Part shown: positions 18,701 to 35,790 of the stretch, piece after piece
How the letters are laid out: the number at the start of each line of letters is the position of its first letter
Position numbering within the stretch: position 1 is the stretch's first letter
Source: Dehalococcoidia bacterium
Lineage (GTDB): Bacteria > Chloroflexota > Dehalococcoidia > JAUSIH01
Assembly: GCA_030648205.1 (NCBI GenBank)
Contig: JAUSIH010000020.1
Location: 1 to 52,818 of the forward strand
Direction: 5' to 3'
Length of the DNA stretch: 52,818 bases
Translations under genes and position numbers: made by a program
Notes under the pieces: generated by a model
Told to the model about the DNA's origin: nothing
Database searches by the model: none
The model's input: the letters and a program-made list of their open reading frames with translations, nothing else

Positions 18701-18785
18701 AGCCTGTCCTCTCCTTGAATTTGGTATTCCGGCGAAGGGCCGCTACCCGGAGGCGATACGCCAGGGGATCGCCAACGCAGCACCG

Positions 18786-20006
18786 CTAGTAGATGACCTT
18801 GCTTTTCTCCTTCTCCTGCACCGTTTCGCGACTCATGCCCAGCAGTTCATTAAAGACAAGCCCGTTATGCTCTCCAAACAATGGAGCGGGCTTTGCCGTG
18901 TCCAGAGGCGTGGCAGAGAACTTCCATTGGGGGCCGATGACCGTGCGCTTCCCGAGGGCCTTGTGCTGAAACTCTTTGTAAATGCCCCGTGATTGAGTGT
19001 GTGGGTCAGTGAAGAGGTCCTTGCTGCTCATGGACGGCATGGCCGCGACTCCGGCGTTCTGGAGCGCATGCATGACGTCGTAAGGCTTGCGCGTCCTCGT
19101 CCACTCAGCGACCGCGGAGTCCAGGGCCGCCCTGTTCTTCCAGCGCACGTGGGGGTCCGCGAACTTGACATCGGTTATCCACTCTGGCCGCCCCAGTACC
19201 CGGCAAAAGGCCTGCCACTCCCGCTCGGCCCCCACGGCGATGCTCACCCAGGAGTCCTTGTCCGCGCAGGGGTACACATTGTGGGGAGCCATGACGTGGT
19301 CTTCATTGCCCTTGCGTGTCGGATTCCTGCCGTTCATTGTGTAGTCAAGGTACATGTCCCCCAACAGGGCTCCCACAGCTTCCCGCGCGGACAAATCAAT
19401 GTGTTGGCCTTCGCCCGTCTGTTTTCTGTGGAACAGCGCGGCGGCGGTGGCGAATGCGACGGTCGTCGCGGCTGTGGCATCAATGGTGGCCCGCCCCTCC
19501 GTAGGCTGACCCCCGACGTATCCGGTCGCGTCGGAAAGGCCTGAAAGCGCCGCGAATATGCCTGCGTAGCCTGCGTACTGCCGTTCAGGGCCGCGGCTTC
19601 CCATGCTGGACAAGGATAGGACGATGATGTCCGGCCTTTCCCTCCGCATGTCGGCGTAGCCCAGGCCAATCTTGTCCATCTTCCCCGGGCGCATGTTGGC
19701 CACCGCCACGTCCGAGATGCGGAGCAGGCCTCTCACTATGTCTCGACCGTCGGGGTTGGTAAGGTCAACAGTGACGCCTAATTTGCACTGGTTGTTGTCG
19801 TTGAACCGCGGAACCATATTGAGGAAATTCGGATCGTCGCTGAGCCCCGGAGAACGGCGTCCCGAGTCCAAATGGCGCCTGCTCTCCACCTTGATGACCT
19901 CAGCGCCCATGAAAGCGAGCAACGTGGCGCCGTATGGACACGCCATCTGCGTGCTGAAGTCCAAGATGCGGACCCCGCTCAGAGGGTATATCGACATGGA
20001 CGTCAT
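18786..20006 (-). CDS. CaiB/BaiF (family III) CoA-transferase, pair 1 subunit B
   Basis: 406 residues; GAAGGAAGAAGG precedes the ATG. The fold markers are LSGVRILDFSTQMACPYGATLLAFMGAEVIKVES at the N-terminus, LTNPDGRDIVRGLLRISDVAVANMRPG near 80, GLGYADMRRERPDIIVLSLSSMG near 115, and GEGQHIDLSAREA near 198. The presumed catalytic Asp is in TIDATAA. Such enzymes move CoA between acyl-CoA and carboxylic acids. It lies 15 nt after a second CaiB/BaiF gene; the two may form a heteromer like benzylsuccinate CoA-transferase BbsEF (inference). It is closest in layout to the gene at 27754. Confidence 0.94.
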   Translation of the reverse strand: MTSMSIYPLSGVRILDFSTQMACPYGATLLAFMGAEVIKVESRRHLDSGRRSPGLSDDPNFLNMVPRFNDNNQCKLGVTVDLTNPDGRDIVRGLLRISDVAVANMRPGKMDKIGLGYADMRRERPDIIVLSLSSMGSRGPERQYAGYAGIFAALSGLSDATGYVGGQPTEGRATIDATAATTVAFATAAALFHRKQTGEGQHIDLSAREAVGALLGDMYLDYTMNGRNPTRKGNEDHVMAPHNVYPCADKDSWVSIAVGAEREWQAFCRVLGRPEWITDVKFADPHVRWKNRAALDSAVAEWTRTRKPYDVMHALQNAGVAAMPSMSSKDLFTDPHTQSRGIYKEFQHKALGKRTVIGPQWKFSATPLDTAKPAPLFGEHNGLVFNELLGMSRETVQEKEKSKVIY

Positions 20007-20021
20007 CGCCTTCTTCCTTCC

Positions 20022-21239
20022 TTATATCACGCCGGCCAGTCGCAGCTCGACCATTTCCGTCTTGCTGATGCCCAGGCGCCCTGAATAAACCTCTTCATTG
20101 TGCTGGCCCAAAAGAGGCGCGGGCCTCTTGAACGACACCGGCGTCTGAGAAAAATGGTACCCGGCTGTGGGGTACGCGAACTTACCCGCGACTGGATGTT
20201 GAACGTCGGCCATGAAGCCCTGGACGCGCGTCTGCGCTGAGTTGATCGCTTCACCGATCGTGTACACGGGGCCAACCGCGCAGTCGTGGGCCTGAGCCTG
20301 GTGGTACACCTCGTCCTTGGTGTGGGTCTTGAGCCATTCAATGACCAGGCCGTTGACTTCCTTCTTTAGCGCGACTCTGCTTTCGGCGTTCTTGTAGCGT
20401 TCCTCCTGAGTCCACGCCGGCCTCCCCATGATCTCCACGAGTCCCTCCCACATGCGCGCCTCGAAGGCCATGACCACCGCGAACCCGTCCTTGCACGGCA
20501 TGAGGCCACCGATAGGGAGCTCACGCACTGACCGTGTCTCTACAAAGTCCTCGTTCGGGTACCGCGCCAGCACAACCCGGCTCAGAGCCATCAGCGCTTC
20601 CTGCTTGGAGATATCAATGTGCTGCCCTGACCCGATGGCGTCCCGTCCATACAGAGCGCATGCAGCGGCGATTGCGGCCGTGAGACCGGCGACGTACTCT
20701 CCAAAGTACCCAGCAATCTTGATGGGTTCTCTGTCCGGGTACGTCGCGTAGCCCAGGCCGCCGGGAAGAGTGTACCCTTCGCCTCCCGCATGGAACGTAT
20801 TCAACGGATATGCCTTGTAGTTCTTGTACGGGCCTGATTGCCCGAATGGAGTGATGGACACCATAATCAACCGGGGATTGATGGCCCGCAGCGTCTCGTA
20901 TCCAAGTCCCGCCTTGTCGAGTTCTCCCGGCTCACGGTCTTCAATCAGAACATCCGCGTTCTTCAGCAGTTGCAGCAGTATGTCCTTGCCTGACACTGTG
21001 TTGCAGTTGAGCGTCACGCCGCGCTTGTTGGTGTTCGCGTAGAGGAACAGCCCGCTTTGCTCGCTGTTCGGTATATCGCCCAGGAACGGGCCTCTGGACC
21101 GCGCCCTGTCCCCGACCAGCGGCGGCTCGACTTTGACGACATCGGCGCCCAGGTCGGCCAATAGCTTGCCGCAGTAGGGCGCCGCCGCGAGTTCACCTAT
21201 TTCGACAACGTTAACGCTTTCGAAAACGTTCTTGCTCAT
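20022..21239 (-). CDS. CaiB/BaiF CoA-transferase, pair 1 subunit A (Glu at the catalytic Asp position)
   Basis: 405 residues; AAAAGGGGAC lies before the ATG. N-terminal VVEIGELAAAPYCGKLLADLGADVVKVE and NTNKRGVTLN are family hallmarks, as are GLGYETLRAINPRLIMVSITPFGQSGPY and GSGQHIDISKQEAL. Where the family normally has the catalytic Asp (Gly-Asp or x-Asp-Tyr before an Ala/Gly-rich helix), this protein reads GYFGEYVAGLTAA. The acid may therefore be Glu, or this may be a non-catalytic subunit. It is paired with the gene 15 nt downstream and resembles the gene at 28999. Confidence 0.93.
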   Translation of the reverse strand: MSKNVFESVNVVEIGELAAAPYCGKLLADLGADVVKVEPPLVGDRARSRGPFLGDIPNSEQSGLFLYANTNKRGVTLNCNTVSGKDILLQLLKNADVLIEDREPGELDKAGLGYETLRAINPRLIMVSITPFGQSGPYKNYKAYPLNTFHAGGEGYTLPGGLGYATYPDREPIKIAGYFGEYVAGLTAAIAAACALYGRDAIGSGQHIDISKQEALMALSRVVLARYPNEDFVETRSVRELPIGGLMPCKDGFAVVMAFEARMWEGLVEIMGRPAWTQEERYKNAESRVALKKEVNGLVIEWLKTHTKDEVYHQAQAHDCAVGPVYTIGEAINSAQTRVQGFMADVQHPVAGKFAYPTAGYHFSQTPVSFKRPAPLLGQHNEEVYSGRLGISKTEMVELRLAGVI

Positions 21240-21325
21240 GTCACAGTCCCCTTTTTATGCATGACTTGCTACAATGCCGTATGGCGGCTCATCACCCAAA
21301 AGGCGCAGGTCCTTCTCCCGCATGG

Positions 21326-22153
21326 CTAGACGGAGTAGTACGCTCCCCCATTGATTTGAATGGACTGGCCGGTGATGTAAGCGGCGTCGTCCGAAGCCAG
21401 GAAGCCCACCAGCTTGGCCAATTCCCACGGCTCCCCGCGTCGTCCAACCGGGATGCCGGTTTCCAGCGGGCTTCCCGAAACGCGCCCGCCACCATCAATC
21501 GCTGCTGTTGAAACGGTGGGAGATTTGCCTCCGGCGAAGGGCTCGGCGTTCCGAAGGCCTTCGTGCCACACAATGGGCCGCGTTGTGTTGAACGGACCGG
21601 GGACGACGCAGTTGACCGTGATGCCATAGCGGGAAAACTCTGACGCCTGCGCTCTTGTCAGACCGGAGATGCCTGACTTGGCGGCCACGCAATGCGCCCT
21701 CTCTGTCTTGCCGTAATAGGCGTCACGTCCCGAGATGTGGATGATGCGTCCCCAGCGCCTTTTTATCATGTCCGGCAGGGTCAGTTTCGTCGTACGGAAG
21801 CACCCGCCAAGGTTGACCGCCAGGACGAGGTTCCATTCTTCTTCCGATATGTCCAGGAACGGCGTGGGCGGGCGAATGCCAACCATGTTGACTACGATGT
21901 CCACGCGCCCAAATGCTTCATTGGCGCTCTTGACGATCCGCTCGACATCCGACATGGAACCCACATCGCCGATCGCGGCCATCGCCCTGACGCCTTTCGC
22001 ACGACACTCAGCCACCACGCTCTCAATCTCGGCCTTGTTCGTGCGGGCATTGACCACTACGTCAGCGCCTAGTGAGGCCAGCTCCAACGCCGTAGCTTTG
22101 CCCATGTTCCGGCCCGCGCCTGTTACCAAGGCAACCTTGCCTTTTAGTCTCAC
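21326..22153 (-). CDS. SDR-family oxidoreductase with an atypical active site
   Basis: 275 residues from a GTG at 22153, chosen because GAGAGGGG lies 5 nt upstream and the protein then opens with the canonical RLKGKVALVTGAG. It has a Rossmann fold with TGAGRNMGKA, NMVG and ISGRDAYYG. At the usual YxxxK catalytic pair the sequence is AHCVAAKSG: Lys is kept but Tyr is replaced by Cys. C-terminal GQSIQINGGAYYSV is normal. The nucleotide sequence supports the Cys codon (TGC). It probably oxidises or reduces a hydroxy/keto intermediate with NAD(P), or has changed chemistry. It lies between the dpp permeases and the CoA-transferase pair. Confidence 0.93.
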   Translation of the reverse strand: MRLKGKVALVTGAGRNMGKATALELASLGADVVVNARTNKAEIESVVAECRAKGVRAMAAIGDVGSMSDVERIVKSANEAFGRVDIVVNMVGIRPPTPFLDISEEEWNLVLAVNLGGCFRTTKLTLPDMIKRRWGRIIHISGRDAYYGKTERAHCVAAKSGISGLTRAQASEFSRYGITVNCVVPGPFNTTRPIVWHEGLRNAEPFAGGKSPTVSTAAIDGGGRVSGSPLETGIPVGRRGEPWELAKLVGFLASDDAAYITGQSIQINGGAYYSV

Positions 22154-22203
22154 GGAAACCCCTCTCACTGGTTCTTTCCTCTGCCCTGCATACCCATTTA
22201 TAT

Positions 22204-23103
22204 CTAACGGAGTCTTGGGTCCAGAACGTCCCGCAGGCTGTCGCCCAGAAGGTTGAATCCAAATACGGCCAGGCTAAGGGCGACCCCAGGATATATCGCC
22301 ATCCACGGCGCCACCTCCATGTATTCCCGTCCCGCGCCGGCCAGCATGCCTCCCCAGGACGGAGTTGGAGGGGGAGTGCCCACGCCAAGAAAGCTCAAAG
22401 AAGCCTCTACAATGACAGCCGCACCCAGCGCACCCGTGGCGTACACGATGTACGGAGCGACGCAGTTGGGAACAACATGCAAAAACACGACGCGCAGCGG
22501 GCCAGCGCCAACTGCTCTGGCAGCCTCAATGTACTCCCTTTCTCTGACAGATATCGCGGCGGAGCGCACGATGCGGGCTGAGCGCGGCATCTGAACAGTC
22601 CCTATGGCGAGCACCACGTTGCCCACCGATGGTCCCAGTACCGACACCATCCCGAGAGCCAAGACCAGGGTAGGAAACGCCATGATCACATCCACGAGCG
22701 AACGCTGCACGATCATGTCGAACCGGCCCCCAATATAGCCGCTCAGGACACCCAGGATGGCGCCCGCACTCGTGCCAAGGCCTACCGACAGCAATGCGAC
22801 GTAGAGCGAGATGCGCGCGCCGAAGATGACTCTGCTCAGCACATCACGGCCAAAGTTGTCCGTGCCGAACGGGTATGTGACGCCCGGAGCTGTCAGAGGA
22901 GTCGCATAATTCATGGCGATGGGGTCATAAGGAGCGACTATCTGAGCCCCCAGCGCAAGCAAGACCATCAGGCAGATTAGCAAACCTCCGATGGCGCCCA
23001 GGGGCTTGCGTCTGCAAAAGCGAACCAAAGAGGCGGCCACGCCGGAATAGCCGCCTGTGCCCGCGGCTATCACGCGGGTCCCGACGGACGCGGTCCGAGC
23101 CAT
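22204..23103 (-). CDS. ABC transporter permease, DppC/OppC type
   Basis: 299 residues; GGAGAG before the ATG. It shows SLVRFCRRKPLGAIGGLLICLMVLLA, YPFGTDNFGRDVLSRVIFGARISLYVALLSVG, the coupling segment EYIEAARAVGAGPLRVVFLHVVPN and SLSFLGVGTPPPTPSWGGML, and the C-terminal GDSLRDVLDPRLR. It partners the DppB encoded 32 nt upstream. It is a paralogue of the permease at 13309. No ATPase gene follows; the SDR gene does. Confidence 0.95.
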   Translation of the reverse strand: MARTASVGTRVIAAGTGGYSGVAASLVRFCRRKPLGAIGGLLICLMVLLALGAQIVAPYDPIAMNYATPLTAPGVTYPFGTDNFGRDVLSRVIFGARISLYVALLSVGLGTSAGAILGVLSGYIGGRFDMIVQRSLVDVIMAFPTLVLALGMVSVLGPSVGNVVLAIGTVQMPRSARIVRSAAISVREREYIEAARAVGAGPLRVVFLHVVPNCVAPYIVYATGALGAAVIVEASLSFLGVGTPPPTPSWGGMLAGAGREYMEVAPWMAIYPGVALSLAVFGFNLLGDSLRDVLDPRLR

Positions 23104-23135
23104 GCTCTCTCCCCATCTAGCCTGGGCCAGCTTGA

Positions 23136-24092
23136 TCAGCTAAAGCGGATACGAGGATCCAACCACCCGTATGTGATATCAACGAGGAGGTTGACGACCA
23201 TAACGATAAGGGTCAGGACGAGCATGAAGGTTTGTATGACGGGATAGTCCCGCTGCTGAATCGCCCCGACAAGAGCCAATCCCATCCCTGGCAGCATGAA
23301 GATAGACTCCGCCACAACAGACCCTTCCAATGCCACGGCTATTTGAATGCCCGCCAGCGTAACAACGGGAAGCATCATGTTCTTCAAGGCATGGCGAATC
23401 ACTACGGCGCGTTCTTTGAGGCCTTTGGACCACGCGGTGCGGATGTAGTCCTGGCGCAACACCTCGAGCATCGTGGCGCGCGTCATCCGGGCCAGATACG
23501 CTGACAGGAAATAGCCCACGGCCAGCGCCGGCCATATGACCTGCTGAAGATTGACCAACGGGTTTTCAAACAGTCCTGTATATCCCATTGGAGGAAACCA
23601 GTTGAACCATACGACAAGGGAAAAGAGTATCAACGTCCCCGTCCAGAAGGATGGCATGGTCAGGCCGAAGACGCTCACAATACGCAACAACTGGTCAACG
23701 AGCGTGTCCTGACGAAGCGCGCATATTACTCCTGTGGGAATCGCGATGAGTATAGACATCAGTACGGTCAGAACGGCAAGCTCAAAGGTCACGGGGAACC
23801 GCAGCTTGATCTCATCAACGATTGGCCGACCAGAGTGCCAGGAGTGTCCGAGGTCCAGACGAACAATACGCCACAGCCACTCCACATACTGGATGTGCAG
23901 GGGTTGGTCCAAGTTTAGTTCCGCTCGGACTCTGGCCATGTCCGCCAGCGTGCCAGCGCCCTGCCCGCCTCCGGTAACGATTGCCATAGCGGCATCTCCA
24001 GGCATCACGCGCATGATGACAAATGTCAACACGGTGACACCGAGGAGCACAGGCACCGTCAAGAGCAACCGCTTTATGACATAGGCGCGCAT
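23136..24092 (-). CDS. ABC transporter permease, DppB/OppB type
   Basis: 318 residues. N-terminal MRAYVIKRLLLTVPVLLGVTVLTFVIMRVMPGD, then RAELNLDQPLHIQYVEWLWRI, the coupling loop YIRTAWSKGLKERAVVIRHALKNMMLP, and the C-terminal DITYGWLDPRIRFS, all typical of DppB. It follows two solute-binding lipoproteins by 38 nt and precedes DppC, so the order is SBP-SBP-B-C. The duplicated binding proteins may widen the ligand range of one channel. Confidence 0.95.
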   Translation of the reverse strand: MRAYVIKRLLLTVPVLLGVTVLTFVIMRVMPGDAAMAIVTGGGQGAGTLADMARVRAELNLDQPLHIQYVEWLWRIVRLDLGHSWHSGRPIVDEIKLRFPVTFELAVLTVLMSILIAIPTGVICALRQDTLVDQLLRIVSVFGLTMPSFWTGTLILFSLVVWFNWFPPMGYTGLFENPLVNLQQVIWPALAVGYFLSAYLARMTRATMLEVLRQDYIRTAWSKGLKERAVVIRHALKNMMLPVVTLAGIQIAVALEGSVVAESIFMLPGMGLALVGAIQQRDYPVIQTFMLVLTLIVMVVNLLVDITYGWLDPRIRFS

Positions 24093-24124
24093 GTTCCCAC
24101 TCTGCCGTCCACTTCTCTTGTTTT

Positions 24125-24306
24125 GACGCCTTACTCAGGCGTCTTCCACGCATCCTCATAGCGCTGACTATCAAGCTGCCCCGCGTTTTGAAGATGCAGG
24201 TTGCGCACGCGGTTCCATGCCGCGCGATAGCCGTCCGGATGCACCAGCACCACACCGTAGACTTGCTCGACCGACAGGTACCGATCAAGAGCCGCGGACT
24301 TCTTCC
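24125..24306. repeat. Near-identical 3'-end segment shared by two tandem binding-protein genes
   Basis: Comparing 24131-24306 with 25946-26121 by eye gives about 4 differences in 176 nt. The match then drops sharply, with many substitutions immediately after 24306/26121. Both copies include the stop codon inside a GACGCC-TGAGTAA-GGCGTC hairpin on the coding strand (24143-24125 and 25958-25940). Confidence 0.85.
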
Positions 24307-25894
24307 TCGCCTCAGCCATATCCACGGTCTGCGCGACTTGGTCAAACATCGCATCCAACCTGGCATCGGAGAGCTGGCTGAATATCTGACCCGAGCTGAC
24401 GTAGTACTCCGCGACATCGTCAGGGTGCCCTGTGGGCATGGATAGGAGTCCGAAGTAGGCCGGGAACTCTCGCTTGGAGCCCGATTCCCAGTAAGGCACT
24501 TGGGCCAATACGCGCAGGGTGGCGCGTATACCTAGCTTTCGCAGCTCGTTCTGGAACCACACGGCCGCGCTCTGGTCCTCTTGCCTCACTGCCATGACAA
24601 CGTCTGTGCCCGCAGCATATCCAGCGTCGGCCACAAGCTGCTTTGCCCTTGCCGCGTCCTGGTCCTTCGGCTGGCGAAAACCAGGCATGGCGAGGACTTC
24701 TTCCTGAGGCATGGACCACGGGTTCGGATAGAAGGCGCCGCCGATGACTCCCACGCCGTCCGCCAGTAACTTCAGGGCTGCCTGCCGGTCAGTCGCAAGG
24801 TGCACGGCCTGTCGCACACGGAGGTCATCAAACGGCTTCTTAGCTGGATTGAAGCGAACGGTGTATTGAAGTGCGGTTTTGATCTGGTAGATGCTCACCT
24901 TGCCAGCAAGCTGGCTTTGTACAATCTGCAACTCCGCGGGGGTCAGGTAAGTACCTCCGCCAACGGACGTGATATCTACTCGTCCCGCTCTAAAGGCGGC
25001 AAATTGGGTGGCCCTGTCGGGAATGATGTAATACGTGATGCCATCCAGATAAGGCAGCTCCTTTATCCGGTACTGCGGATTCCTTTCAAGCACGACCGAA
25101 ACGCCGTGCTTCCACTCCTTCAGCTTGAACGGACCTGTTCCCACTGCCTGTGTATCAAGAACCCTGTCGGTATATTTCCCATCCGCGTCTTTCATCAAAT
25201 GAGCGGGGGGAATTCCCTGACGCGACTCGCTGATGTGCAGCAGAAACACCGAGTCGGGCCTGGCGAGTGTTACCCGCACGGTGTACGGATCAACCACGTC
25301 TACCTTTGTAATAGAGCGATAGTAGGCGGTGAGGGCTATCCGGGTAACAGGCGGGTCCGCCTTGATCCGCAGGAAAAACGCTACGTCCTCAGCGGTGAAA
25401 GACTTTCCATCCTGCCACCGCACGTCCTTGCGCAGCCGGAACGTGTACTGCAACCCGTCAGGGCTGGCTTCCCAGGACTCCGCCAGGTCAGGGATTATCT
25501 TGTCCCACGGCGCCGTGGGGTCGCGCCGCAGAAGATATTCGTAGATCGGAAAAATCACGTGGTGCGTGGTGATGCTCGAGTCTTTAACCGCATTCAAGCT
25601 GGGCGGCTCTCCACGTTGCGCGATAGTCAGCATGCCGCCGTAGACCGGTTTCTCTCCTGGCCGGACCGAGGGCACCGGTGTTGCCACAGATGTGGGAGTT
25701 GGCACGACAACGGGTCGAGGGGTGCTCACCGACGGCACGGACGTCGCCGTCGCACTGGCGCTTGGCTGCGCCGGGGCTGACGTCGGCGCCGCACTTGGCG
25801 TCACCGCCACAGGAACAGCGGGAGCGCATGCCACTCCCACCAGCAGAAGTGCTGCCACTATACTGTTGCCTCTCAGAGCCTTAAGCCTATGCAT
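24131..25894 (-). CDS. Family 5 solute-binding lipoprotein (tandem copy 2)
   Basis: 587 residues from the ATG at 25894, the start that aligns with the tandem copy upstream. Signal peptide with the lipobox region GVAC, a Pro/Ser/Thr tether, then the SBP_bac_5 domain: GMLTIAQRGEPPSLNAV, DLAESWEASPDGLQYTFRLRKDVRWQDGKSFTAEDVAF, VGTGPFKLKEW and LRVRQAVHLATDRQAALKLLADGVG. Its last 176 nt are almost identical to those of the neighbouring copy at 25946, while the DNA just upstream is far more diverged. Likely ligand: a peptide-like or other organic compound, unidentified. Confidence 0.95.
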   Translation of the reverse strand: MHRLKALRGNSIVAALLLVGVACAPAVPVAVTPSAAPTSAPAQPSASATATSVPSVSTPRPVVVPTPTSVATPVPSVRPGEKPVYGGMLTIAQRGEPPSLNAVKDSSITTHHVIFPIYEYLLRRDPTAPWDKIIPDLAESWEASPDGLQYTFRLRKDVRWQDGKSFTAEDVAFFLRIKADPPVTRIALTAYYRSITKVDVVDPYTVRVTLARPDSVFLLHISESRQGIPPAHLMKDADGKYTDRVLDTQAVGTGPFKLKEWKHGVSVVLERNPQYRIKELPYLDGITYYIIPDRATQFAAFRAGRVDITSVGGGTYLTPAELQIVQSQLAGKVSIYQIKTALQYTVRFNPAKKPFDDLRVRQAVHLATDRQAALKLLADGVGVIGGAFYPNPWSMPQEEVLAMPGFRQPKDQDAARAKQLVADAGYAAGTDVVMAVRQEDQSAAVWFQNELRKLGIRATLRVLAQVPYWESGSKREFPAYFGLLSMPTGHPDDVAEYYVSSGQIFSQLSDARLDAMFDQVAQTVDMAEARKKSAALDRYLSVEQVYGVVLVHPDGYRAAWNRVRNLHLQNAGQLDSQRYEDAWKTPE

Positions 25895-25945
25895 ATCCGT
25901 TCTCCCTTGCGCACTCTGCCAGGCCGTATCCTTCACATTGACGCC

Positions 25946-27724
25946 TTACTCAGGCGTCTTCCACGCATCCTCATAACGCTGACTGTCGAGCTGCCCCGCG
26001 TTTTGAAGATGCAGGTTGCGCACGCGGTTCCATGCCGCACGATAGCCGTCCGGATGCACCAGCACCACACCGTAGACTTGCTCGACCGACAGGTACCGAT
26101 CAAGAGCCGCGGACTTCTTCCGTGCTTCCGTCATGTCCACCGTGCGCGCTACGGCATTGAACAGCTCGTCCACTTTCGGGTCTTGCAGCTGGGAGTATAT
26201 CTGCGCCGTGCTCAGGTAATAATCGCCCAGGTCGTCCGGGTGCCCGGTCGGCATGGACTTGGTCCCGAAGTACACGGGAAACTCTTTCTTGCTGGACGAA
26301 TCGTAGTAAGGAGTGTTCGCCATCGGCCTAAGCGTGGCGCGGATGCCTATCTGTCGCAGCTCGTTCTGGAACCACTCCGCCGGCTTCTGGTCTTCCTGTC
26401 TGACCCCCATGATGATGTCCGTGCCGCTGGTGTATCCGGCATCCGCCATAAGCTGTTTCGCCTTCGCTACGTCCTGGTCCTTGGGCTGGCGGAACCCCGG
26501 CATGGACACCACCTCTTCCGGAGGCATGGACCATGGGCTGGGATAGATCGCGCCGCCTATCAATCCGACCCCGTCCGCGGTCAGTTTCAAAGCGGCCTGC
26601 CTGTCGGTGGCCAGATGGACGGCCTGCCGTACGCGAAGGTCGTCAAAGGGCTTCTTGGCGGGGTTGAAAAGGACGGAGGTCTGAAGCGCCGTCTTTGTGT
26701 AATAAATGCTCACCTTGCCCGCAAGCTGGCTCTTCGTGACCTGAAGCTCCGCGGTGGTCAGGTAGGCTCCGGCGCCGACGCCCGTGATGTCAACGCGCCC
26801 GGACCTGAACGCCGCGAACTGCGTGGCCCTGTCTGGAATGATGTAGTACGTGATGCCGTCTAGATACGGCAGGCCCTTGATGCGGTACTGGGGGTCCTTC
26901 TCCAGCACCACGGACGTACCGTGCTTCCATTCCTTGAACTTGTAGGGGCCCGTGCCTACCGCCTGCGCGTCAAGGACTTTGTCCGTGTACTTGCCGTCCG
27001 CGTCCTGCATCAAGTGAGCGGGGGCCACTGACTGCCGCGACTCGCTGACGTGCAAAAGGAACGACGAGTCAGGCGCGGCCAGAGTGACGCGCACGGTGTA
27101 GAGGTCAACCACGTCCACCTTGGATATAGAGCGGAAATAGGATGCCAGAGCTATGCGAGGGACAGGCGGATTGGCCTTCGTCCTCAGATAAAACGCCACA
27201 TCCTGGGCACCGAAAGGCTTGCCGTCCTGCCACTTCACGTCTTTGAGAAGGCGGAACGTGTACTGCGTTCCGTCGGAACTCACATCCCACGACTCCGCCA
27301 GATCAGGAATGATCTTGTCCCACGGGGCCTTCGGGTCTCGGCGCAGTATGTATTCATAAATTGGGAACGTGGCATGGTGCGTGTTGATGCTCGGTTCCTT
27401 GACCGGATTCAGACTGGGCGGCTCCGTCCGGTGCACGATGCTAAGCATGCCCCCGTAGACGGGCTTCTCGCCGGGTAGCACAGCCGCAGCCGGTGTCGCC
27501 ACCAGCGTGGGCGTCGGAGGAAGAATAGGCCGCGGCGTGCTCGTCGGTGGCGCCGCTGGAGCGGCCGGAGCCGCCGGAGCCGTGGGCGCGCTTGACGCCG
27601 TTGGCTGGTTGGGTGGTGGAGCGGCGGGACCTGGAGCGGGCGACGGAGCGGGAGCGCACGCCACCCCCGCCAGCAGAAGTGCTGTCACTATACTGTTGCC
27701 TCTTAAAGCCTTAAGCCACGACAT
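25946..27724 (-). CDS. Family 5 solute-binding lipoprotein (tandem copy 1)
   Basis: 592 residues from the ATG at 27724, chosen over an ATG 12 nt earlier because GGAGAAGGA directly precedes it and because it matches the start of the tandem copy. Signal peptide SWLKALRGNSIVTALLLAGVAC, then a long Ala/Pro tether. The binding domain repeats the motifs of copy 2 (GMLSIVHRTEPPSLNPVKEP, KDVKWQDGKPFGAQDVAFYL, VGTGPYKFKEWKHG). Both copies precede one DppBC pair. The signal-peptide and 3'-end DNA are near identical between copies; the middle is diverged. Confidence 0.95.
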   Translation of the reverse strand: MSWLKALRGNSIVTALLLAGVACAPAPSPAPGPAAPPPNQPTASSAPTAPAAPAAPAAPPTSTPRPILPPTPTLVATPAAAVLPGEKPVYGGMLSIVHRTEPPSLNPVKEPSINTHHATFPIYEYILRRDPKAPWDKIIPDLAESWDVSSDGTQYTFRLLKDVKWQDGKPFGAQDVAFYLRTKANPPVPRIALASYFRSISKVDVVDLYTVRVTLAAPDSSFLLHVSESRQSVAPAHLMQDADGKYTDKVLDAQAVGTGPYKFKEWKHGTSVVLEKDPQYRIKGLPYLDGITYYIIPDRATQFAAFRSGRVDITGVGAGAYLTTAELQVTKSQLAGKVSIYYTKTALQTSVLFNPAKKPFDDLRVRQAVHLATDRQAALKLTADGVGLIGGAIYPSPWSMPPEEVVSMPGFRQPKDQDVAKAKQLMADAGYTSGTDIIMGVRQEDQKPAEWFQNELRQIGIRATLRPMANTPYYDSSSKKEFPVYFGTKSMPTGHPDDLGDYYLSTAQIYSQLQDPKVDELFNAVARTVDMTEARKKSAALDRYLSVEQVYGVVLVHPDGYRAAWNRVRNLHLQNAGQLDSQRYEDAWKTPE

Positions 27725-27753
27725 GTCCTTCTCCATCAGGGTGCTGAATATGG

Positions 27754-28980
27754 TTAGCGTATGACGCCTTCTCGCGCCATTTCTTGGAACTCCAAATCTG
27801 TAAACCCCAGCAGGCTGCTGAAAATATAGCCATTATGCTCCCCTACGAAAGGAGCATGGCGCCTGAGAGACCCCGGCGTGCGGCTGAATTTCCATGGAAT
27901 TCCCGAAACCACCTCTCCGGGCAGTAGGGGATGGTCCAGACGTTCGTAGGTATGGCGAGCCTTGAAGTGAGGATCCTCATATTGTTCCGCATAGGTTATC
28001 ACAGCCGTCGCCGCTACGCCAGCTTTCTGAAGCATCTGGGCGGCCTCCTGGGGCGTATGGTTCAGAGTCCACTGAGACAACTGCTCGTCAAGCGCCTGGG
28101 CGTGGAGCACGCGTTGATCGGAAGTCGCGAAGCGCGGATCCCTCGCCCACTCCGGATCGCCCAGGACACGGCAAAGGCTCCGCCATTCACCGTCGCTGCC
28201 AACGGCAATGGCGACCCATCGGTCATCTCCCTTGCAGCGGTAGTTTCCGTGCGGCGCCATGTTGGGGTGCCAGTTCCCCCTGGGCTGCGGCACGCGCCGC
28301 GTAAGCACGTACTCCAGGAACGCCTGCCCCAGAACTGTCGCGGTTGCTTCCCACGCGGAAAGGTCTATGTACTGGCCCTGTCCCGTGCGGTTCCTGTGCA
28401 AAAGAGCGGTAAGCACAGCAACAACCGCGTAGGCGGCCGCGGTGGCGTCGCCATAGCCGGAACGCAGCCCCGCGAGAGGGCCGTCCCGATAGCCCATCAC
28501 GCTGTCCGCGCCAGCGAGCGCTGACATTGCGGGAGCATACACCACGATGCTGCTCAATGGGCCGCGCTGCCCCGCCGACGAAAGCGACACCATCACCAAC
28601 TGTGGGTTGAAGCGACGCAGAGAGGGGTAGTCCAGACCAGCGCGGGCAAGCACGCCTGGAGTGAAGTTCTCGAACACAACATCACTCTGAGTCACGAGTC
28701 TGCCAATCACATCTTGCGCTTTCGGCTGCGTGATATCCACCGTGATGTCGAGCTTGTTACGACCCAGGCTGTGAAAGCTCGGCCTGCGCTCTTCGGGGTC
28801 CGTGACGCCCTTTCCGGGATTGCCCAACCGGAAACCGTCAAGGTGCTGGCGCGATTCCACCTTGATTACTTCAGCGCCCATGTCAGCCAGCATCTGACCG
28901 GGCTGTCCGCCCGCGAGGGCCGTGCCGAAGTCGATAACGCGATAACGGCGGAGAGGCAGTACGCTAGTCGTGTTCTGCAT
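27754..28980 (-). CDS. CaiB/BaiF CoA-transferase, pair 2 subunit B
   Basis: 408 residues from the ATG at 28980 (a GTG at 28986 is possible). N-terminal LRRYRVIDFGTALAGGQPGQMLADMGAEVIKVES, FENFTPGVLARAGLDYPSLRRFNPQLVMVSLSSAG near 100, the catalytic Asp in GYGDATAAAYAV, GQGQYIDLSAWEA near 203, and the C-terminal FVGEHNGYIFSSLLGF. It starts 18 nt after its partner CoA-transferase and is most like the pair 1 gene at 18786. Transfers CoA to an unknown acid. Confidence 0.93.
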   Translation of the reverse strand: MQNTTSVLPLRRYRVIDFGTALAGGQPGQMLADMGAEVIKVESRQHLDGFRLGNPGKGVTDPEERRPSFHSLGRNKLDITVDITQPKAQDVIGRLVTQSDVVFENFTPGVLARAGLDYPSLRRFNPQLVMVSLSSAGQRGPLSSIVVYAPAMSALAGADSVMGYRDGPLAGLRSGYGDATAAAYAVVAVLTALLHRNRTGQGQYIDLSAWEATATVLGQAFLEYVLTRRVPQPRGNWHPNMAPHGNYRCKGDDRWVAIAVGSDGEWRSLCRVLGDPEWARDPRFATSDQRVLHAQALDEQLSQWTLNHTPQEAAQMLQKAGVAATAVITYAEQYEDPHFKARHTYERLDHPLLPGEVVSGIPWKFSRTPGSLRRHAPFVGEHNGYIFSSLLGFTDLEFQEMAREGVIR

Positions 28981-28998
28981 GCACACAGATCCTAACCG

Positions 28999-30204
28999 CT
29001 AAATCACGCCGGAACGACGAAGCTTCTCAAGGTCGTCATTGCTCAGGCCGAGGTCCCCGCAAAAGACGTTTTCATTATGCTCTCCCAACTTGGGAGGCGG
29101 GCTGTGCGCCGCGCAGGGGGTCTCCGAGAAGTGATACGGTGACCCTGGCGCTGAGATTTCTCCGATGTCTTCTCTGAATATGCGGGTGAAAAAGCCTCGA
29201 TACTGCAACTGCTCATCCCGCATGACTTCGTCTATCGTCTGGACTGGCGCGACGGGGACGTGCGCCTCCCGACAGAGTGCGAATATCTCATCTTTGGTAT
29301 GTTCCATCAGCCAGGGAGCCAGAAGGGCGTCCACCTCCTCCGGGTACTTCGTTGCCATTGCGTGACGGTCCCGGTATCGAGGCTGCTTCGTCCACTCAGG
29401 GTCTCCCATGACCTTGACGAACCGGATCCATTGGGCTACCTGAGGAGCTATCATGCTGATATACCCGTCCTTGCAGCGCCATAGGCCGTTGGGGAAAACC
29501 TCCCCCCTGCCGCTTCTGCCAGACCGTCTTCCCACCGTAAGCCCATCCCAAATATAAAGACCTGTGTGCATCGCGGCGATGCAGTCACTAACGGAGACAT
29601 CAACATGCTGACCAAGCCCGCTCATGTCCCGTTCAAGGAGCGCCACGCAGGAAGTGGCGCAACCGTAGAGCCCTCCCGCATAGTCCATCAGATCATAGGG
29701 CGGCGCCAGCGGCTCCCTGTCCGAGCTTCCATTGACTGTCGTGACCCCGCCCATGGCGCTCGCCTGGATGCTGTACCCCCGAAAATCGCGGTAGGGACCA
29801 CTCTGTCCAAAGGGAGTGATGGAGGTCGCGACCAGAGCAGAGTTCACACCTTGCAGCGTCTGATAAGTGAGCCCCAGGCGCTCCATGTGGGCAGGAGCGT
29901 TGTTTTCTACCAAAAGGTCAGCGCGTTTCATGAGACGAAGGAACAGATCCCGACCTCGTGCGTCCTCCACATTAAGCGTGACCCCGCGCTTGTTGGTGTT
30001 GAGGTAAAGAAAGAGCGCGCTTTTCTCCGAGTCAGGCACGTCATTGGGGAACGGGCCGCGCTGACGGGACTCATCGCCCTGGAGTCGCTCCACCTTGATG
30101 ACCTCCGCGCCGAGGTCGCCCATCAGCTTCGCGCAAAAGGCGGCGGAGATGTTGTTCCCATATTCGACAACTCGGAACCCTGCCAAGGCGGACGAAGGAG
30201 TCAT
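28999..30204 (-). CDS. CaiB/BaiF CoA-transferase, pair 2 subunit A
   Basis: 401 residues. It opens LAGFRVVEYGNNISAAFCAKLMGDLGAEVIKVE and shares the SRQRGPFPNDVPDSEKSALFLYLNTNKRGVTLN layout with the pair 1 gene at 20022. The presumed catalytic Asp is in DLMDYAGGLYG, so unlike that homologue it keeps Asp. GLGQHVDVSVSDCI and the C-terminal LGEHNENVFCGDLGLS are typical. It is preceded by UGSC module 2 and followed by its partner, consistent with CoA activation in the same pathway. Confidence 0.93.
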   Translation of the reverse strand: MTPSSALAGFRVVEYGNNISAAFCAKLMGDLGAEVIKVERLQGDESRQRGPFPNDVPDSEKSALFLYLNTNKRGVTLNVEDARGRDLFLRLMKRADLLVENNAPAHMERLGLTYQTLQGVNSALVATSITPFGQSGPYRDFRGYSIQASAMGGVTTVNGSSDREPLAPPYDLMDYAGGLYGCATSCVALLERDMSGLGQHVDVSVSDCIAAMHTGLYIWDGLTVGRRSGRSGRGEVFPNGLWRCKDGYISMIAPQVAQWIRFVKVMGDPEWTKQPRYRDRHAMATKYPEEVDALLAPWLMEHTKDEIFALCREAHVPVAPVQTIDEVMRDEQLQYRGFFTRIFREDIGEISAPGSPYHFSETPCAAHSPPPKLGEHNENVFCGDLGLSNDDLEKLRRSGVI

Positions 30205-30338: not shown

Positions 30339-31373
30339 TCAAGAGGGAATGCGTCTCGTAACGGCAAAGGCCATGCCAAGAGTGTGACACGCCACCGAAT
30401 GGTATCCGCCATGCCCGCCGGCCACAACGATCAGAAACTGGTCAGCCCGAGCCGCCAGCCGAACATAGTCACCCTGGATTTGGTCTGGGACACCAGCCCG
30501 CATTGACTCGAGCCGGGGCGGAGGGAACCACGACGCGGGCATTTTGCTCGTTAATTCGAGCAGACGTTCTTTGGCCTGCTGCTTGGAAAAGTCCTGAGCG
30601 ATCAGCGCCGCATGATCAGGGCACAAGATTATCACTATCTCACCGTAACCATAGCGAATAAACACGTTGTTGCTGCCGATGACCTCCATCGAATGGGCGA
30701 GCGTCATGAGCATATGCTCGGCGCGCTTGCTGTCCTTGTCATGCACGTTTATCGTACCTGTGGGCGCCGCCACAGTTACCGTACTGTCCTCGGCCTTGAA
30801 ACCGCGCTCGACATGCAACGGCTCCCACGGGTTTTTCTCTTCATACTCTCCGAGGCAAAAACTATAGCGGCCGGGTTGAGAGTGGGTGGATTTGGAGACT
30901 TTTCCTGGAACGCGGCCCGCCAGGTTGATCATGGCGAGGCTGACTGCCCGACCTATAGTTGCGTTGGCGCGGTTCCCTGGACCGAGAACGCTCCATGAGC
31001 AGTTGATATCCAGTTTGGCCCGAATAGGCCCATTTATTATCAGCATGGGAGCAGATGGGTTTGTCGAAGTGTTCATCATGAGCAATGCATATTTAGGATC
31101 GGTGAGCGCCTCAATAGCCGTCACCACCACGGGGAAGTACTGCGGCAGGCACCCCGCCATGACGGCATTGACCGCCAACGCTTCGATAGTAGCGGCAGCA
31201 CGCCTGGGGGGTAACTCAGCGACTACTTCCTGCGGCGAACGTGGCACACTCGCCATCATTTTCTCGACGCGGTCGGCCGTCGGGGGTATGATCGGCAGGC
31301 CGTCGGTCCATCCGCGTTCATATGCCCAGGCATAGACGTCATCAATGGACCCGAGTAGCTCATGGACATCCAT
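30339..31373 (-). CDS. Conserved partner protein of UGSC selenoprotein, copy 2
   Basis: 344 residues from the ATG at 31373. A GAGG site overlaps the stop codon of UGSC gene 2, only 7 nt upstream, which argues for translational coupling and rules out the longer frame starting at 31439. It shares with copies 1 and 3 the GWTDGLPIIPPT stretch (residues 21-32), NAVMAGCLPQYFPV with Cys75, GPGNRANATIGRA and KNPWEPLHVERGF. The C-terminus has a Gly-rich VVAGGHGGYHSV, also seen in copy 3 (VAGGNGGLHSL). Probably cytoplasmic; function unknown. Confidence 0.88.
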   Translation of the reverse strand: MDVHELLGSIDDVYAWAYERGWTDGLPIIPPTADRVEKMMASVPRSPQEVVAELPPRRAAATIEALAVNAVMAGCLPQYFPVVVTAIEALTDPKYALLMMNTSTNPSAPMLIINGPIRAKLDINCSWSVLGPGNRANATIGRAVSLAMINLAGRVPGKVSKSTHSQPGRYSFCLGEYEEKNPWEPLHVERGFKAEDSTVTVAAPTGTINVHDKDSKRAEHMLMTLAHSMEVIGSNNVFIRYGYGEIVIILCPDHAALIAQDFSKQQAKERLLELTSKMPASWFPPPRLESMRAGVPDQIQGDYVRLAARADQFLIVVAGGHGGYHSVACHTLGMAFAVTRRIPS

Positions 31374-31380
31374 AGGCTTG

Positions 31381-31983
31381 TTACCTCTTTCGCGCGGGAA
31401 TCTCACGCCCACGGCAGGCGGCGCGTATGATCTCGTCAAACTTCGCCTCGGCGATGGACCGCACCTCCGCTACTGAAAGCGTCTCAAAGGGGTGGGGCAC
31501 AACGACCATGGGCAAATCCGGATAACCTAACGACTTCGCGCAGCTATCCGCGAGATTTTTAAAAGCCTCCGCGACAATCGACACAGTAGGAATTCCCCGC
31601 TTCTCGACCTCGACGGCGTCGTGGATACACCACGCTGTGCAGCCTCCTCAGCCGGCCAGACCAATCACAGCCCAATCACAACCGGAAGCGAATGCGTCGA
31701 ACTGTTTGGGCAGAGTGACCTGGTCTCGCCTGCTGCGGAGAGCCACATCTACGCGCCACGTTTTCTCGAGGTTCCATTCGTGTATTCCCGCGGGGTGCTC
31801 CCGCGCCAAGAGTAACTCCTTGAAGCGTGCCATAAACACATCAAAGTTGGACCATTGAATCCGGAAACCGGCAGTCTTACCGGCGACGGTGTCAAGCCGT
31901 GGCGACAGCTTGTGCCTGACAACATGTGTCTGGCCTGACGGATCAATAAGACGCCAGAGCACCTGTTCCCCAGTCGGGTTCAT
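31381..31983 (-). CDS. UGSC-family selenoprotein 2 (in-frame UGA at 31650-31648)
   Basis: 200 residues if the UGA is Sec112; a GAGGAGG site precedes the ATG. The codons read VIGLAG-U-GGCTAWCIHDAVE, then KRGIPTVSIVAEAF and on to a TAA at 31381. The downstream half holds FEKL-like VVPHPFETLSVAEV, matching VLPHPFETLPPDV in copy 3. Because the region after the UGA is plainly the same domain as in copies 1 and 3, an independent second gene is unlikely. The hairpin at 31634-31620 is the SECIS candidate. It precedes its partner by 7 nt and follows a solute-binding protein. Confidence 0.88.
31620..31634 (-). promoter_or_regulatory. Bacterial SECIS-like hairpin of UGSC gene 2
   Basis: On the mRNA, CGTGG-TGTAT-CCACG, a perfect 5-bp stem that begins 13 nt after the UGA. 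The second loop nucleotide is G. The position is identical to the other two copies. Confidence 0.75.
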
Positions 31984-32232: not shown

Positions 32233-33984
32233 CTATCGGTCCAGCCAGACTCTGTCCATCTTCAGATTGACGAAGGAGCCCGGCGCAGGATCGTAGTCCT
32301 TGACTTCGTTCCACCAAGCTCGTTGAAACACAAACCAGAATGCTACGGGATGGATGGCCAACTCCAGAATACGTTGCTGCGCCTTGACCGTCAACGCCTT
32401 GCGTTGGGCAACATCTAGCGTCTTTTTCTCTTGCTCAAAGAGGTTGTCGATTTCCTTGTCGCTGAACGCTCCGTAATTTCTCGGGCTGCCCGTGACGTAA
32501 TACGCAAAAAACGTGTCGGGGTCGTCCAGAGCCTCACCGAAAGAAGTGAACACCAAGCTGAATCGAGCTGCCTCCAGCCGCTCATAAAGAACAGGAAGAG
32601 CCAATGGCTCAATGGGTTCGGTCAGGATTCCAACGGCAGCTAGTTGCTGCTGAATCACAGGCGCCAACTGATCCAGTCCCGCCAGAGTCAGCATCCCCGT
32701 CTTATAGCCATTTCCATATCCTGCTTCTGACAAGAGCCGTTTGGCTGAGGCAATGTCAGAGTCTTTGGGCTGGCGATAACCCGGGAAATTCCGTAGTTCT
32801 GCTTCTGAGAGGCCCCACTGACCAAGTGGCGGCATGGCCGCACCGATAGCGCCCAAGTTGTCGTTTACCTTTATCAGGTTTTGGCGGTCTAGAGCCATCT
32901 GCACAGCCTGTCGCACTCTCACGTCTTTCCAGGGTTCACGGGAGGTGTTCATGAACAACACGTACCGTGAGAAAGCGGCGTGCTCTTTCATGGTTGCCTT
33001 ATCCGCCATCTCCCGCTTGATGACTGCCGCCTGGCTTGGAGTCATCGCTGTCCCGCCCATGGAAGTCATGCGCACCCGTCCAGTGCGGAATGCGGCAAGC
33101 CGCGTGTTCCCGTCTAGAATGACAAAGAAAGTTATCCCGTCCAAATACGGCAAAGACTTATCGTAGTAGGCGTTGTTCTTCGTCAACTGCATGCTAACGC
33201 CTCGGTCGTGCTTGGTCCAGAGGAAAGGGCCCGTACCGTTCACAACCCTCTTCATGTCCCCGGACGCCTGAATCGTGTGCTTGGGCATCACGGGAATCCA
33301 ATCGGTTGCTATGCTCGGCAAGAAGGAAGCGGAGGGATACTTCAGTTTTACCTGAATAGTGGATGGATTCACGACATCCACTTTGTCCAATGCGGTCAAA
33401 AGAGCGGACCCCCGAGGACTCACACTGTTGTAATTTTCGGGATGGGCCATCCGCATCAAGCTAAATGCGGCATCATCCGCGGTGAATGGCCGACCATCAT
33501 GCCACTTGACGTCAGCTCTCAGGTGGAAGGTATACACGGTGCCGTCTGCGCTGACATCCCATTTATCAGCGAGTTCGGGCACTATTTCGCTGTGCTGCAG
33601 ATAGTGATACTTAACGAGTCCTTCGTAAACATTTCGGAGCGGAAAGATGACGGGCAGGCCAGTCTCCTGTTGCACATCATAGGTTGGGGGTTCTCCGTGA
33701 GCTGCTATGAGGAGTACCCCACCGCGCTTGGGAGCAACTTTGCCAGCAGCGGGAGTAGCAGTTGGGCCAGATAGCGATGGAGCAGGAGCAGGCGTGGGCT
33801 GACCAGACGGAGTTCGAGGCCCCAGCGTCGGGATAGGCGTCTGCGGAGCATTGGCGCTGGGCCCGGTCGCGGGAATGTTGGCAGTGGCGGGAACGGAGGG
33901 ATTAGCCTGCGGGGCGCAAGCTTGCGCCAGCATGCTAACCATGACAAGGCAACTGAGCAAAAAGCCGGCAGCGTGCTTCTTCAT
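32233..33984 (-). CDS. Family 5 solute-binding lipoprotein
   Basis: 583 residues from the ATG at 33984, preceded by GGGAGGGG. The signal peptide is MKKHAAGFLLSCLVMVSMLAQAC with a slightly unusual lipobox (Gln at -2), then a Pro/Thr/Ala tether. Binding-domain motifs: GGVLLIAAHGEPPTYDV, LADKWDVSADGTVYTFHLRADVKWHDGRPFTADDAAF, VNGTGPFLWTKHDRGV and VRVRQAVQMALDRQNLI. It lies between UGSC modules 3 and 2, with no permease gene next to it. Its codon use looks somewhat more AT-rich than the 5' part of the window. Confidence 0.95.
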   Translation of the reverse strand: MKKHAAGFLLSCLVMVSMLAQACAPQANPSVPATANIPATGPSANAPQTPIPTLGPRTPSGQPTPAPAPSLSGPTATPAAGKVAPKRGGVLLIAAHGEPPTYDVQQETGLPVIFPLRNVYEGLVKYHYLQHSEIVPELADKWDVSADGTVYTFHLRADVKWHDGRPFTADDAAFSLMRMAHPENYNSVSPRGSALLTALDKVDVVNPSTIQVKLKYPSASFLPSIATDWIPVMPKHTIQASGDMKRVVNGTGPFLWTKHDRGVSMQLTKNNAYYDKSLPYLDGITFFVILDGNTRLAAFRTGRVRMTSMGGTAMTPSQAAVIKREMADKATMKEHAAFSRYVLFMNTSREPWKDVRVRQAVQMALDRQNLIKVNDNLGAIGAAMPPLGQWGLSEAELRNFPGYRQPKDSDIASAKRLLSEAGYGNGYKTGMLTLAGLDQLAPVIQQQLAAVGILTEPIEPLALPVLYERLEAARFSLVFTSFGEALDDPDTFFAYYVTGSPRNYGAFSDKEIDNLFEQEKKTLDVAQRKALTVKAQQRILELAIHPVAFWFVFQRAWWNEVKDYDPAPGSFVNLKMDRVWLDR

Positions 33985-34038
33985 AAACCCCTCCCTGTAA
34001 CTCCTTATGTATGTCTTTCCCAAAGATTGTTCCCAGAC

Positions 34039-35070
34039 CTACTCGCGGATAAGTCGAGTTACCATCGCCGAATTACTTAGACTCGGTAGGAACAAGGAGT
34101 GCAGGCCTCCATTGCCGCCGGCAACGGCGATGATGAAACTATCAGGGCTCGGCGCTCCTTGGACAGTACCCTCAAACACTCTCCCATCTTTGATGAAGTG
34201 TTCTTGCTCTGGTTTTGAGAAGTCGGTCAGCGGAATACGTTTCGTATGCTCAAACAGAAACTCTCGTAGGGACTGCTTGGAATACCCATCACGATGCATG
34301 ATAGCTGCATGGTCCGGGTTCAGGACTACAAGATTCCTGCCTTTGTGTTTACGAACGACGTGTATACTTGGCCAGTGCATAGCCGATGACAATGTGGTCA
34401 AGATGTCTTCTGCTGTCCGACTCCAAATATCTGAGACGTTACAGAAACTTGAAACGCCCAAAATAGAAATGGTGCTATCCCCTGGGCGAAAACCGCGCTC
34501 CACATGCAACGGCTCCCACGGGTTTTTCTCCTCGTTCTCTCCAATAACCCCGGTATACCGCCAGGGAGAACCCATAGTTGACTTGGAAACCGCTTCTGGG
34601 ACTGATCCTGCTATGTTCAATTGAATGAAGCGGATCGCTCGACCAATCGTCGCGTTTGCACGCCACCCTGGCCCAAAGCATCCATAGCTGCCATTGATCT
34701 CAAGCTTGTGGCGGATTGGACCATTGACGATGGATATTAGTCCTACCGAATTCGTGGTCGTGTTCACGTAGTACATGCCCAAAGCGGGATCCGCCATAGC
34801 CTCGGCAGCAGCGATGACTACGGGGAAGTAGGATGGCAGACATCCAGCCATCACCGCGTTCACAGCTAAGCACTCTAAAGTAGCCTCGCCGTTCTGCGGC
34901 TCAAGTTGTGTGATGACCTTCTCAGGTGGTCTGTTACCTAACATCTGTATCACTCTGTCTTCCGTAGGTGGCACTATAGGGAGACCGTCAATCCAATTCT
35001 GGGAACATGCAAATGCATAGATATCATCATACGAATCCTTCACAATTACGCGTTCAACAGGAGAAGGCAT
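34039..35070 (-). CDS. Conserved partner protein of UGSC selenoprotein, copy 3
   Basis: 343 residues. Shared family motifs are NWIDGLPIVPPTEDRV (residues 25-40), NAVMAGCLPSYFPV with Cys77, GPGWRANATIGRA, ENEEKNPWEPLHVERGF and the C-terminal VAGGNGGLHSL. It follows UGSC gene 3 by 53 nt and precedes a solute-binding lipoprotein by 54 nt. With the other two copies it shows that the selenoprotein/partner order is fixed. No catalytic family is recognised. The ATG has only a weak upstream GGAG. Confidence 0.87.
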   Translation of the reverse strand: MPSPVERVIVKDSYDDIYAFACSQNWIDGLPIVPPTEDRVIQMLGNRPPEKVITQLEPQNGEATLECLAVNAVMAGCLPSYFPVVIAAAEAMADPALGMYYVNTTTNSVGLISIVNGPIRHKLEINGSYGCFGPGWRANATIGRAIRFIQLNIAGSVPEAVSKSTMGSPWRYTGVIGENEEKNPWEPLHVERGFRPGDSTISILGVSSFCNVSDIWSRTAEDILTTLSSAMHWPSIHVVRKHKGRNLVVLNPDHAAIMHRDGYSKQSLREFLFEHTKRIPLTDFSKPEQEHFIKDGRVFEGTVQGAPSPDSFIIAVAGGNGGLHSLFLPSLSNSAMVTRLIRE

Positions 35071-35123: not shown

Positions 35124-35702
35124 TTACTGCGACACTACCGGAAGCGTCTTACGATGGGTTGTCAATGTATCGACGATCTGCCGGAGTTGTTCGTCAGCCA
35201 TGTGTGTCGCCACATCCGGGGGGAGCGTTTCAAATGGGTGCGGCAAGACAACGAAAGGGATATCAGGCCACCCTCGCCCTCGCGCACACGCCCTCCCCAA
35301 CCCTTCGAACTCTTTCGTTACGACCGCGACGACAGGTATCCCGGCTTTTTCCAGACGTACGGCATCGGAGATACACCCCGCAGTGCATGCGCCTCAAGCG
35401 CCCAAGCCGACGATAGCGGTATCGATTTGTGTGACAAAGGCGTTCCAGTCTGTATCGCTGATGCGATTCCACTTGTTGGAGGTTGCGTCCGCGCCGGCAA
35501 GTCGGGCCACATGTGCTACACCAATTTCCGTACGCAGCAGCTCTTCCAGCCGATCAGCAAAACGTCCGTAATTAGCCCATAGAAAGTTATCCCAAATACC
35601 CACACGCATCCCCCTCAAAGTGCTGAGGCGGTCGTTTAGTCTATGACTGGCCTTTTGGAGAACGGGCACGGGACTGAGTAAGACAGTCGTGCGCTCAAGC
35701 AT
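35124..35702 (-). CDS. UGSC-family selenoprotein 3 (in-frame UGA at 35396-35394)
   Basis: 192 residues if the UGA is Sec103; GGAGAG lies about 6 nt before the ATG. The frame is AIVGLGA-U-GACTAGCISDAV, then RLEKAGIPVVAVVTKEFEGLG, PFVVLPHPFETLPP and a TAA at 35126-35124, with no other stop. Conventional ORF calling sees only the first 102 residues and loses the rest. It shares the domain layout of copies 1 and 2, including an N-terminal segment with RLxTLRGMRVGIWDN (compare IDTLRGKRIGLLDN in copy 1). It is the first gene of the 24-kb cluster and has a good promoter at 35790-35762. Confidence 0.88.
35366..35380 (-). promoter_or_regulatory. Bacterial SECIS-like hairpin of UGSC gene 3
   Basis: On the mRNA, CGGGG-TGTAT-CTCCG, 13 nt after the UGA. 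Relative to copies 1 and 2, a U-A pair has become G-C and a G-C pair has become G-U. The stem is kept although two encoded residues change (Trp to Gly and His to Ser). Confidence 0.77.
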
Positions 35703-35761
35703 TGTATCTCTCCAATGCGCCGGTTACGTGCTATTGCGACCAGTCCATTCTGAATCTGGGC

Positions 35762-35790
35762 AGTGTAGCATATGCCATGATGCGCGTCAA
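35762..35790 (-). promoter_or_regulatory. Candidate promoter of the 24-kb minus-strand cluster
   Basis: On the minus strand, TTGACG (35790-35785), a 17-nt spacer, and TACACT (35767-35762). The predicted start, near 35755, lies about 53 nt before the ATG of UGSC gene 3. Confidence 0.65.

Follow-up and report, generated by a model that had tools for sequence, protein, structure and literature searches.

A probable UGSC-family selenoprotein gene, its many paralogs, and their near-constant partner in a Dehalococcoidia bacterium

How is the in-frame TGA read in a minus-strand gene that stands at the head of a 24-kb cluster in the genome of a Dehalococcoidia bacterium? The gene (35124..35702, minus strand; copy 3 in the following) lies in the window, i.e., the whole analysed stretch of 52,818 nucleotides, and runs from an ATG at 35702 to a TAA at 35126-35124, with the TGA as its codon 103 (35394..35396, minus strand). 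Read through this codon, the frame gives a product of 192 residues with a predicted selenocysteine (Sec) at position 103, in a U103-G-A-C106 motif. An earlier note had placed the TGA at 35396-35394, followed by 89 sense codons up to the TAA, and these coordinates are exact. It was also right that ordinary ORF calling misses the 3' half (the called ORF covers only 35394-35702, 102 aa) and that no start codon occurs early in the downstream half, the first in-frame ATG, GTG, or TTG being a TTG 32 codons on; since this restart lies beyond the motif cysteine, 3 codons past the TGA, a split-gene reading loses that residue, as had been argued. Upstream of the gene, a Shine-Dalgarno-like GGAGAG (35708..35713, minus strand) can be read directly from the sequence. 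The "good promoter" of the same note is weak: one extended -10 site (TTGACG-17-TACACT, 35762..35790, minus strand) does occur there, but its 9 of 12 matches are near chance, and the promoter scan finds 3 sites in the region versus 1.1 ± 1.0 in shuffles.

Taken alone, the open stretch of 89 codons is weak evidence, as 769 of 20,000 mononucleotide shuffles (about 4%) are open over the same length. This, together with the normal use of TGA as a stop in this genome (6 of the 27 window genes; 54 of the 218 called ORFs), speaks for a true stop, stemming from a sequencing error, a decayed gene, or a short product, with the downstream frame being a relic or a separate gene. Such a reading is rendered very improbable by 41 paralogs with a TGA at the identical codon, by the conservation of the sequence past it, and by the missing early restart and the complete Sec machinery (see below). 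It is this protein conservation, with 41 of 46 family matches bearing a TGA at the same motif, rather than the openness of the 89 codons, that is the real evidence for the presumed readthrough.

The product of copy 3 matches the Pfam family PF24696 over residues 8-181, thereby spanning the TGA, with E 2e-38 and 132.6 bits (gathering score 25). Two further genes of the window on the minus strand, copy 2 (31381..31983; TGA 31648-31650) and copy 1 (12678..13238; TGA 12942-12944), also match PF24696 with one internal TGA each, in agreement with the claim that all three encode the same domain. Against the NCBI equivalog NF041046, copy 3 scores 80.6 bits, below the curated 125-bit cut-off, and is therefore a diverged member of the UGSC family that lies outside the equivalog. 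UGSC-containing selenoproteins are described from the GOS metagenome in the part of the literature considered here (PMC2398784); copy 3 shares with them the domain, the predicted Sec in UxxC, and the rarity of Cys forms, and differs in its motif (UGAC, not UGSC) as well as in its score against the equivalog. By its sequence, it adds one more member to a family that has been known since 2008.

The genome containing the window (2.69 Mb in 120 contigs; completeness 95%, contamination 0.95%) has 46 matches to PF24696, 45 of them over the cut-off. Exactly one TGA, always at the UxxC, is found in 41 of these 46, so the three UGA-split copies previously recognized in the window belong to a set of at least 41 such genes. 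The motif is UGSC in 27 copies, UGGC in eight, UGAC in five, and UGVC in one; none of the 46 matches has Cys in place of Sec. The remaining five comprise three full-length matches without the whole motif and two contig-end fragments (C70:2-229 and C87:23506-23718), possibly halves of one copy, which were excluded from the 41. With the second extended to C87:23506-23800, the two could be joined into a further copy that is close to copy 3. The downstream half of copy 3 compared with the near-copy on C70 gives a dN of 0.22 and a dS of 2.64, the latter being nearly saturated. Three frames, L040, L027, and L041 (C16:17933, C43:1739, and C14:12468), are fusions of the UGSC domain to the partner described below that lack both the UxxC motif and the TGA; they are possibly non-redox paralogs.

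The same genome encodes SelA, SelB, SelD, and a tRNASec with the anticodon TCA (ARAGORN), and its SelD gene itself contains one TGA. The distance from SelA to a divergent UGSC gene is 478 nt, and that from the tRNASec to another UGSC gene is about 1.5 kb (C1:28985-31045 and C102:16143-18230). This inventory bears on the notion that UGA has been reassigned in this organism to an amino acid other than Sec, to which the frequency of in-frame TGA codons within a single family could point. Yet TGA ends 54 of the 218 called ORFs and is therefore not reassigned; even copy 1 has a TGA as its final stop (12678-12680) besides the one read as a Sec codon, so that UGA has both meanings within one gene. 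As the TGA is, moreover, always located at the catalytic motif and the Sec machinery is present, including a SelD with a TGA of its own, we regard reassignment as the least probable of all the readings weighed here.

Sec insertion in bacteria calls for a hairpin after the UGA, and a candidate stem is present in 41 of 41 genes, with its loop at positions 22-26 counted from the U. In copy 3, this SECIS-like apical hairpin (35366..35380, minus strand) has five pairs and a UGUAU loop that lies 18 nt downstream of the UGA. Comparing the global folding energy of the whole segment with synonymous recodings reveals no excess at the SECIS position (z about -0.4, like control segments), and the fold energy of copy 3 is no better than that of dinucleotide shuffles, though the stem does occur in the folded structure; the null result of the recoding comparison probably arises because much of the stem is fixed already by the amino-acid motif. 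A fixed-register test, adopted after the energy comparison gave no signal, counts pairs at set positions: the 41 genes of this genome form 5.22 of 7 pairs versus 4.00 ± 0.16 after synonymous recoding (z 7.4), the 30 best loci of the related Chloroflexi bacterium NC_groundwater_644 form 5.97 versus 4.24 (z 8.4), and 78 loci from a scan of other-genome contigs, some of them from that same relative, form 6.15 versus 4.30 (z 14.3). The register was picked on sequences of the window's genome, the other two sets not being used for choosing it, and controls with the pairing partners slid by 1-3 nt or with a codon-shifted register are lower, at most 4.68. Copy 3 itself forms five of the seven pairs; its pair 19-29 is G-C where T-A is commonest, accompanied by the amino-acid changes W->G and H->S. 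The hairpin expected of a bacterial selenoprotein gene is thus, at the level of sequence, detected by this test in three gene sets.

Since the family match extends across the UGA, the paralogs have their TGAs at the same place, the Sec machinery is complete, the hairpin is locked in register, and TGA serves as a stop elsewhere, the reading of the UGA in copy 3 as Sec is well supported. We propose that SelB would carry the Sec-tRNA to this UGA, guided by the hairpin that starts 11-13 nt downstream, and that Sec would be inserted at residue 103; the strength of the comparative evidence makes this nearly certain in our estimation.

An ORF of one further family, 343-366 aa long, follows each of the three UGSC copies in the window on the same strand: at 34039..35070 (343 aa, 53 nt downstream of copy 3), at 30339..31373 for copy 2 (probable ATG at 31373), and at 11567..12619 for copy 1. 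This partner of about 340 residues, whose invariant segments include DG.P and M.GC, is without a family in Pfam and NCBIfam, finds no relative in a PDB sequence search, and is not matched by GrdE-like (only 2 sequences), GRDB, or UGSC profiles. Across the genome, which has 57 partner matches, it is fused to the UGSC domain or lies on the same strand no more than 400 nt away in 44 of the 46 UGSC matches, with nine of the 46 frames being fusions of at least 570 aa. The partner encoded on C70 is 84% identical to the window's partner. In-frame stops occur in the partner matches L138:4998-6032, C37:15500-16558, and C70:8957-10039 (TGA in the latter two), which may reflect match overrun, a frameshift, or a second Sec.

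Searching genome contigs with the partner recovers 573 relatives, and the 80 loci kept belong most often to Pseudomonadota (35) and Chloroflexota (20). The UGSC domain is present at 69 of these 80, and of 83 UGSC domains at partner loci only one, from Sphingomonas (L150), has Cys in the motif. Among the 11 loci without UGSC are four from Poribacteria, while some others are cut by contig ends; a scan of these loci finds no replacement domain. The poribacterial partner genes (L127, L141, L147, and L149) have no UGSC gene nearby; the partner may also function independently. At one locus (L128), the long frame has an N-terminal portion that is apparently a spurious open frame. A natural UGSC-partner fusion is predicted as a confident whole (pLDDT 92.5, pTM 0.93). 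In view of the pairing and the natural fusions, the UGSC protein and its partner very likely work as one two-component enzyme. A fusion of UGSC to a domain called Unknown_1 appears in the portion of the GOS study considered here (PMC2398784), and the partner may be this domain.

The predicted model of copy 3 (pLDDT 92.3) is a five-strand alternating α/β domain, with the Sec sitting after strand 3, between the strand at 95-101 and the helix at 104-119. Such a five-fold strand-helix alternation differs from the order of strands and helices in thioredoxin. A PDB sequence search with copy 3 yields weak repeat-protein matches only, and fold searches return general flavodoxin/Rossmann-like matches: the UGSC domain alone has a best Z of 10.2, and the fusion reaches a Z of 11.0 with 8s7v chain H (rmsd 2.7, 125 aligned residues), the partner half being barely covered. 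The alignments assembled for the two families comprise 68 of 73 prepared rows for UGSC, and 65 rows for the partner, drawn from 89 partner stretches and 3 window stretches. In a comparison of profiles (hhalign), UGSC aligns with GRDB at a probability of 90-92 and a score of 48-51, the two Sec positions coinciding; the highest decoy scores are 19.8 for 60 column-shuffled profiles and 17.3 for reversed ones. This alignment covers mainly about 50 columns, including the helix and strand after the Sec, and the GRDB sequence set retains two short fragments.

The UGSC proteins resemble GrdB/PrdB (PF07355) in having a UxxC motif and a homologous Sec site. They are unlike them in the spacing of the motif (UxxCxxxC here versus UxxCxxC in GrdB, as given in the part of PMC13188914 considered), in having no direct Pfam match (at E<=1, the 41 UGSC proteins have 19 Pfam families listed, and GRDB is not one of them), and in having a partner unrelated to the tested GrdE-like proteins; nor is there a GRDB match in the window's genome. 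As the partner is unrelated to the GrdE-like, GRDB, and UGSC families, the analogy rests on one half of the pair. The comparison suggests that the Sec site of copy 3 might work like that of GrdB/PrdB, without copy 3 being a member of the GRDB family.

As the earlier note had it, copy 3 heads a cluster, which we find to run from 35702 to 11567 wholly on the minus strand. Besides the three UGSC-partner pairs, this run contains four CoA-transferases, four solute-binding proteins, four permeases, one short-chain dehydrogenase, and one FAS1-like dehydratase-region protein. In order from copy 3, these are an ABC solute-binding protein (SBP_bac_5; 32233..34023), two CoA-transferase family III genes (27754..30204), two solute-binding proteins with two ABC permeases (22204..27736), the short-chain dehydrogenase, two CoA-transferases, and the FAS1-like dehydratase-region protein (17507..22168), and a solute-binding protein with two ABC permeases (13309..17161). 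The commonest neighbor families at other loci are likewise importers, MFS transporters, and CoA-transferases (raw counts among 118 ORFs: SBP_bac_5 14, MFS_1 7, BPD_transp_1 6, CoA_transf_3 5). Elsewhere in the window, the minus strand has two neighboring open frames (5565-8446; 428 and 529 aa) that overlap opposite-strand ORFs and have no Pfam family.

Neighbors for ABC uptake, CoA transfer, dehydration, and dehydrogenation point to the catabolism of imported organic compounds, and it is fairly likely that the selenoprotein and its partner form an enzyme acting in a catabolic setting, the exact reaction apart. A different function has been assumed for the family: the UGSC proteins could be thiol/selenol redox or detoxification proteins, rather than substrate-cleaving catabolic enzymes, and the 2008 GOS paper, in the part considered here, takes them to have a thioredoxin-like fold (PMC2398784). 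The likeness of UxxC to redox CxxC motifs fits this view, which we nevertheless consider unlikely, as the five-fold alternation of the predicted model departs from the thioredoxin order, among functional Sec sites the closest one found belongs to GrdB, and the copies sit in uptake/CoA clusters. For the catabolic enzyme, we envisage that the flavodoxin-like domain would place Sec at the start of a helix, in line with its alignment to the GrdB/PrdB site, that the selenolate would attack a partner-bound substrate, and that the UxxC would form a selenenyl-sulfide and then be reduced again, the net outcome being the reductive cleavage of a carbon-heteroatom bond. This selenol chemistry, proposed by analogy, is tentative, with its chances somewhat below even. 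Many diverged paralog pairs might further serve different substrates, and this, along with the catabolic setting indicated by the gene neighbors, is about equally likely to be right or wrong.

The ~40 UGSC copies of this bacterium, nearly always beside the same partner family, constitute an expansion. The family is present in 132 of 393 genomes sampled from the class and in 23 of 60 relatives, with counts of mostly 1-8, three genomes having 12, 15, and 17, and one outlier. The latter, NC_groundwater_644 (genome of JACPQD01), has at least 150 UGSC matches (all 150 scored of 208 candidates), 143 of them with one TGA, three with two, and four with none; its listed contamination is 7%, and many of its UGSC copies share contigs. 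No tRNASec is found among 150 scored of 734 candidates in this genome, the best being a tRNA-Ser (ARAGORN). Four genomes that are each recorded as one chromosome (L118, L131, L161, and L163) have 6, 8, 4, and 5 copies, respectively. In a tree of 148 rows, chosen by length and score filters, the copies of the window's genome are scattered with 16 label changes, at least eight of them forced by supported branches; as they are spread over several separate parts of the tree, these paralogs are old. Literature searches, mostly without reach into subscription papers, found nothing in print on such an expansion, and in the parts of PMC2398784 examined neither a genome-scale expansion nor a near-constant partner appears; it is by their scale and company that these genes go beyond the known family.

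What surprises is how many paralogs there are and that the partner is nearly always present, the kind of gene being known and the reaction a proposal. Standard annotation ends copy 3, and no fewer than 40 paralogs with it, at the Sec codon, thereby hiding an enzyme family and its active site; given so constant a companion, natural fusions, and a GrdB-like Sec site, an orphan selenoprotein family becomes a testable two-component enzyme. Genes with a predicted Sec number 41 in the 2.7-Mb genome studied here and at least 146 in the 5-Mb relative NC_groundwater_644. The largest bacterial selenoproteomes are given as 57 and 63 in the part of PMC13188914 considered, so that, if the counts hold, one Chloroflexota genome more than doubles that printed maximum of 63 genes. 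UGSC and its partner might represent a large catabolic superfamily in some Chloroflexota, with each pair being a GrdB-like selenol lyase or reductase for a different carbon-heteroatom bond, a conjecture to which we give somewhat less than an even chance; if true, selenium would be a main catalytic element of organic-matter degradation in those Chloroflexota, and theirs would be the largest bacterial selenoproteomes known.
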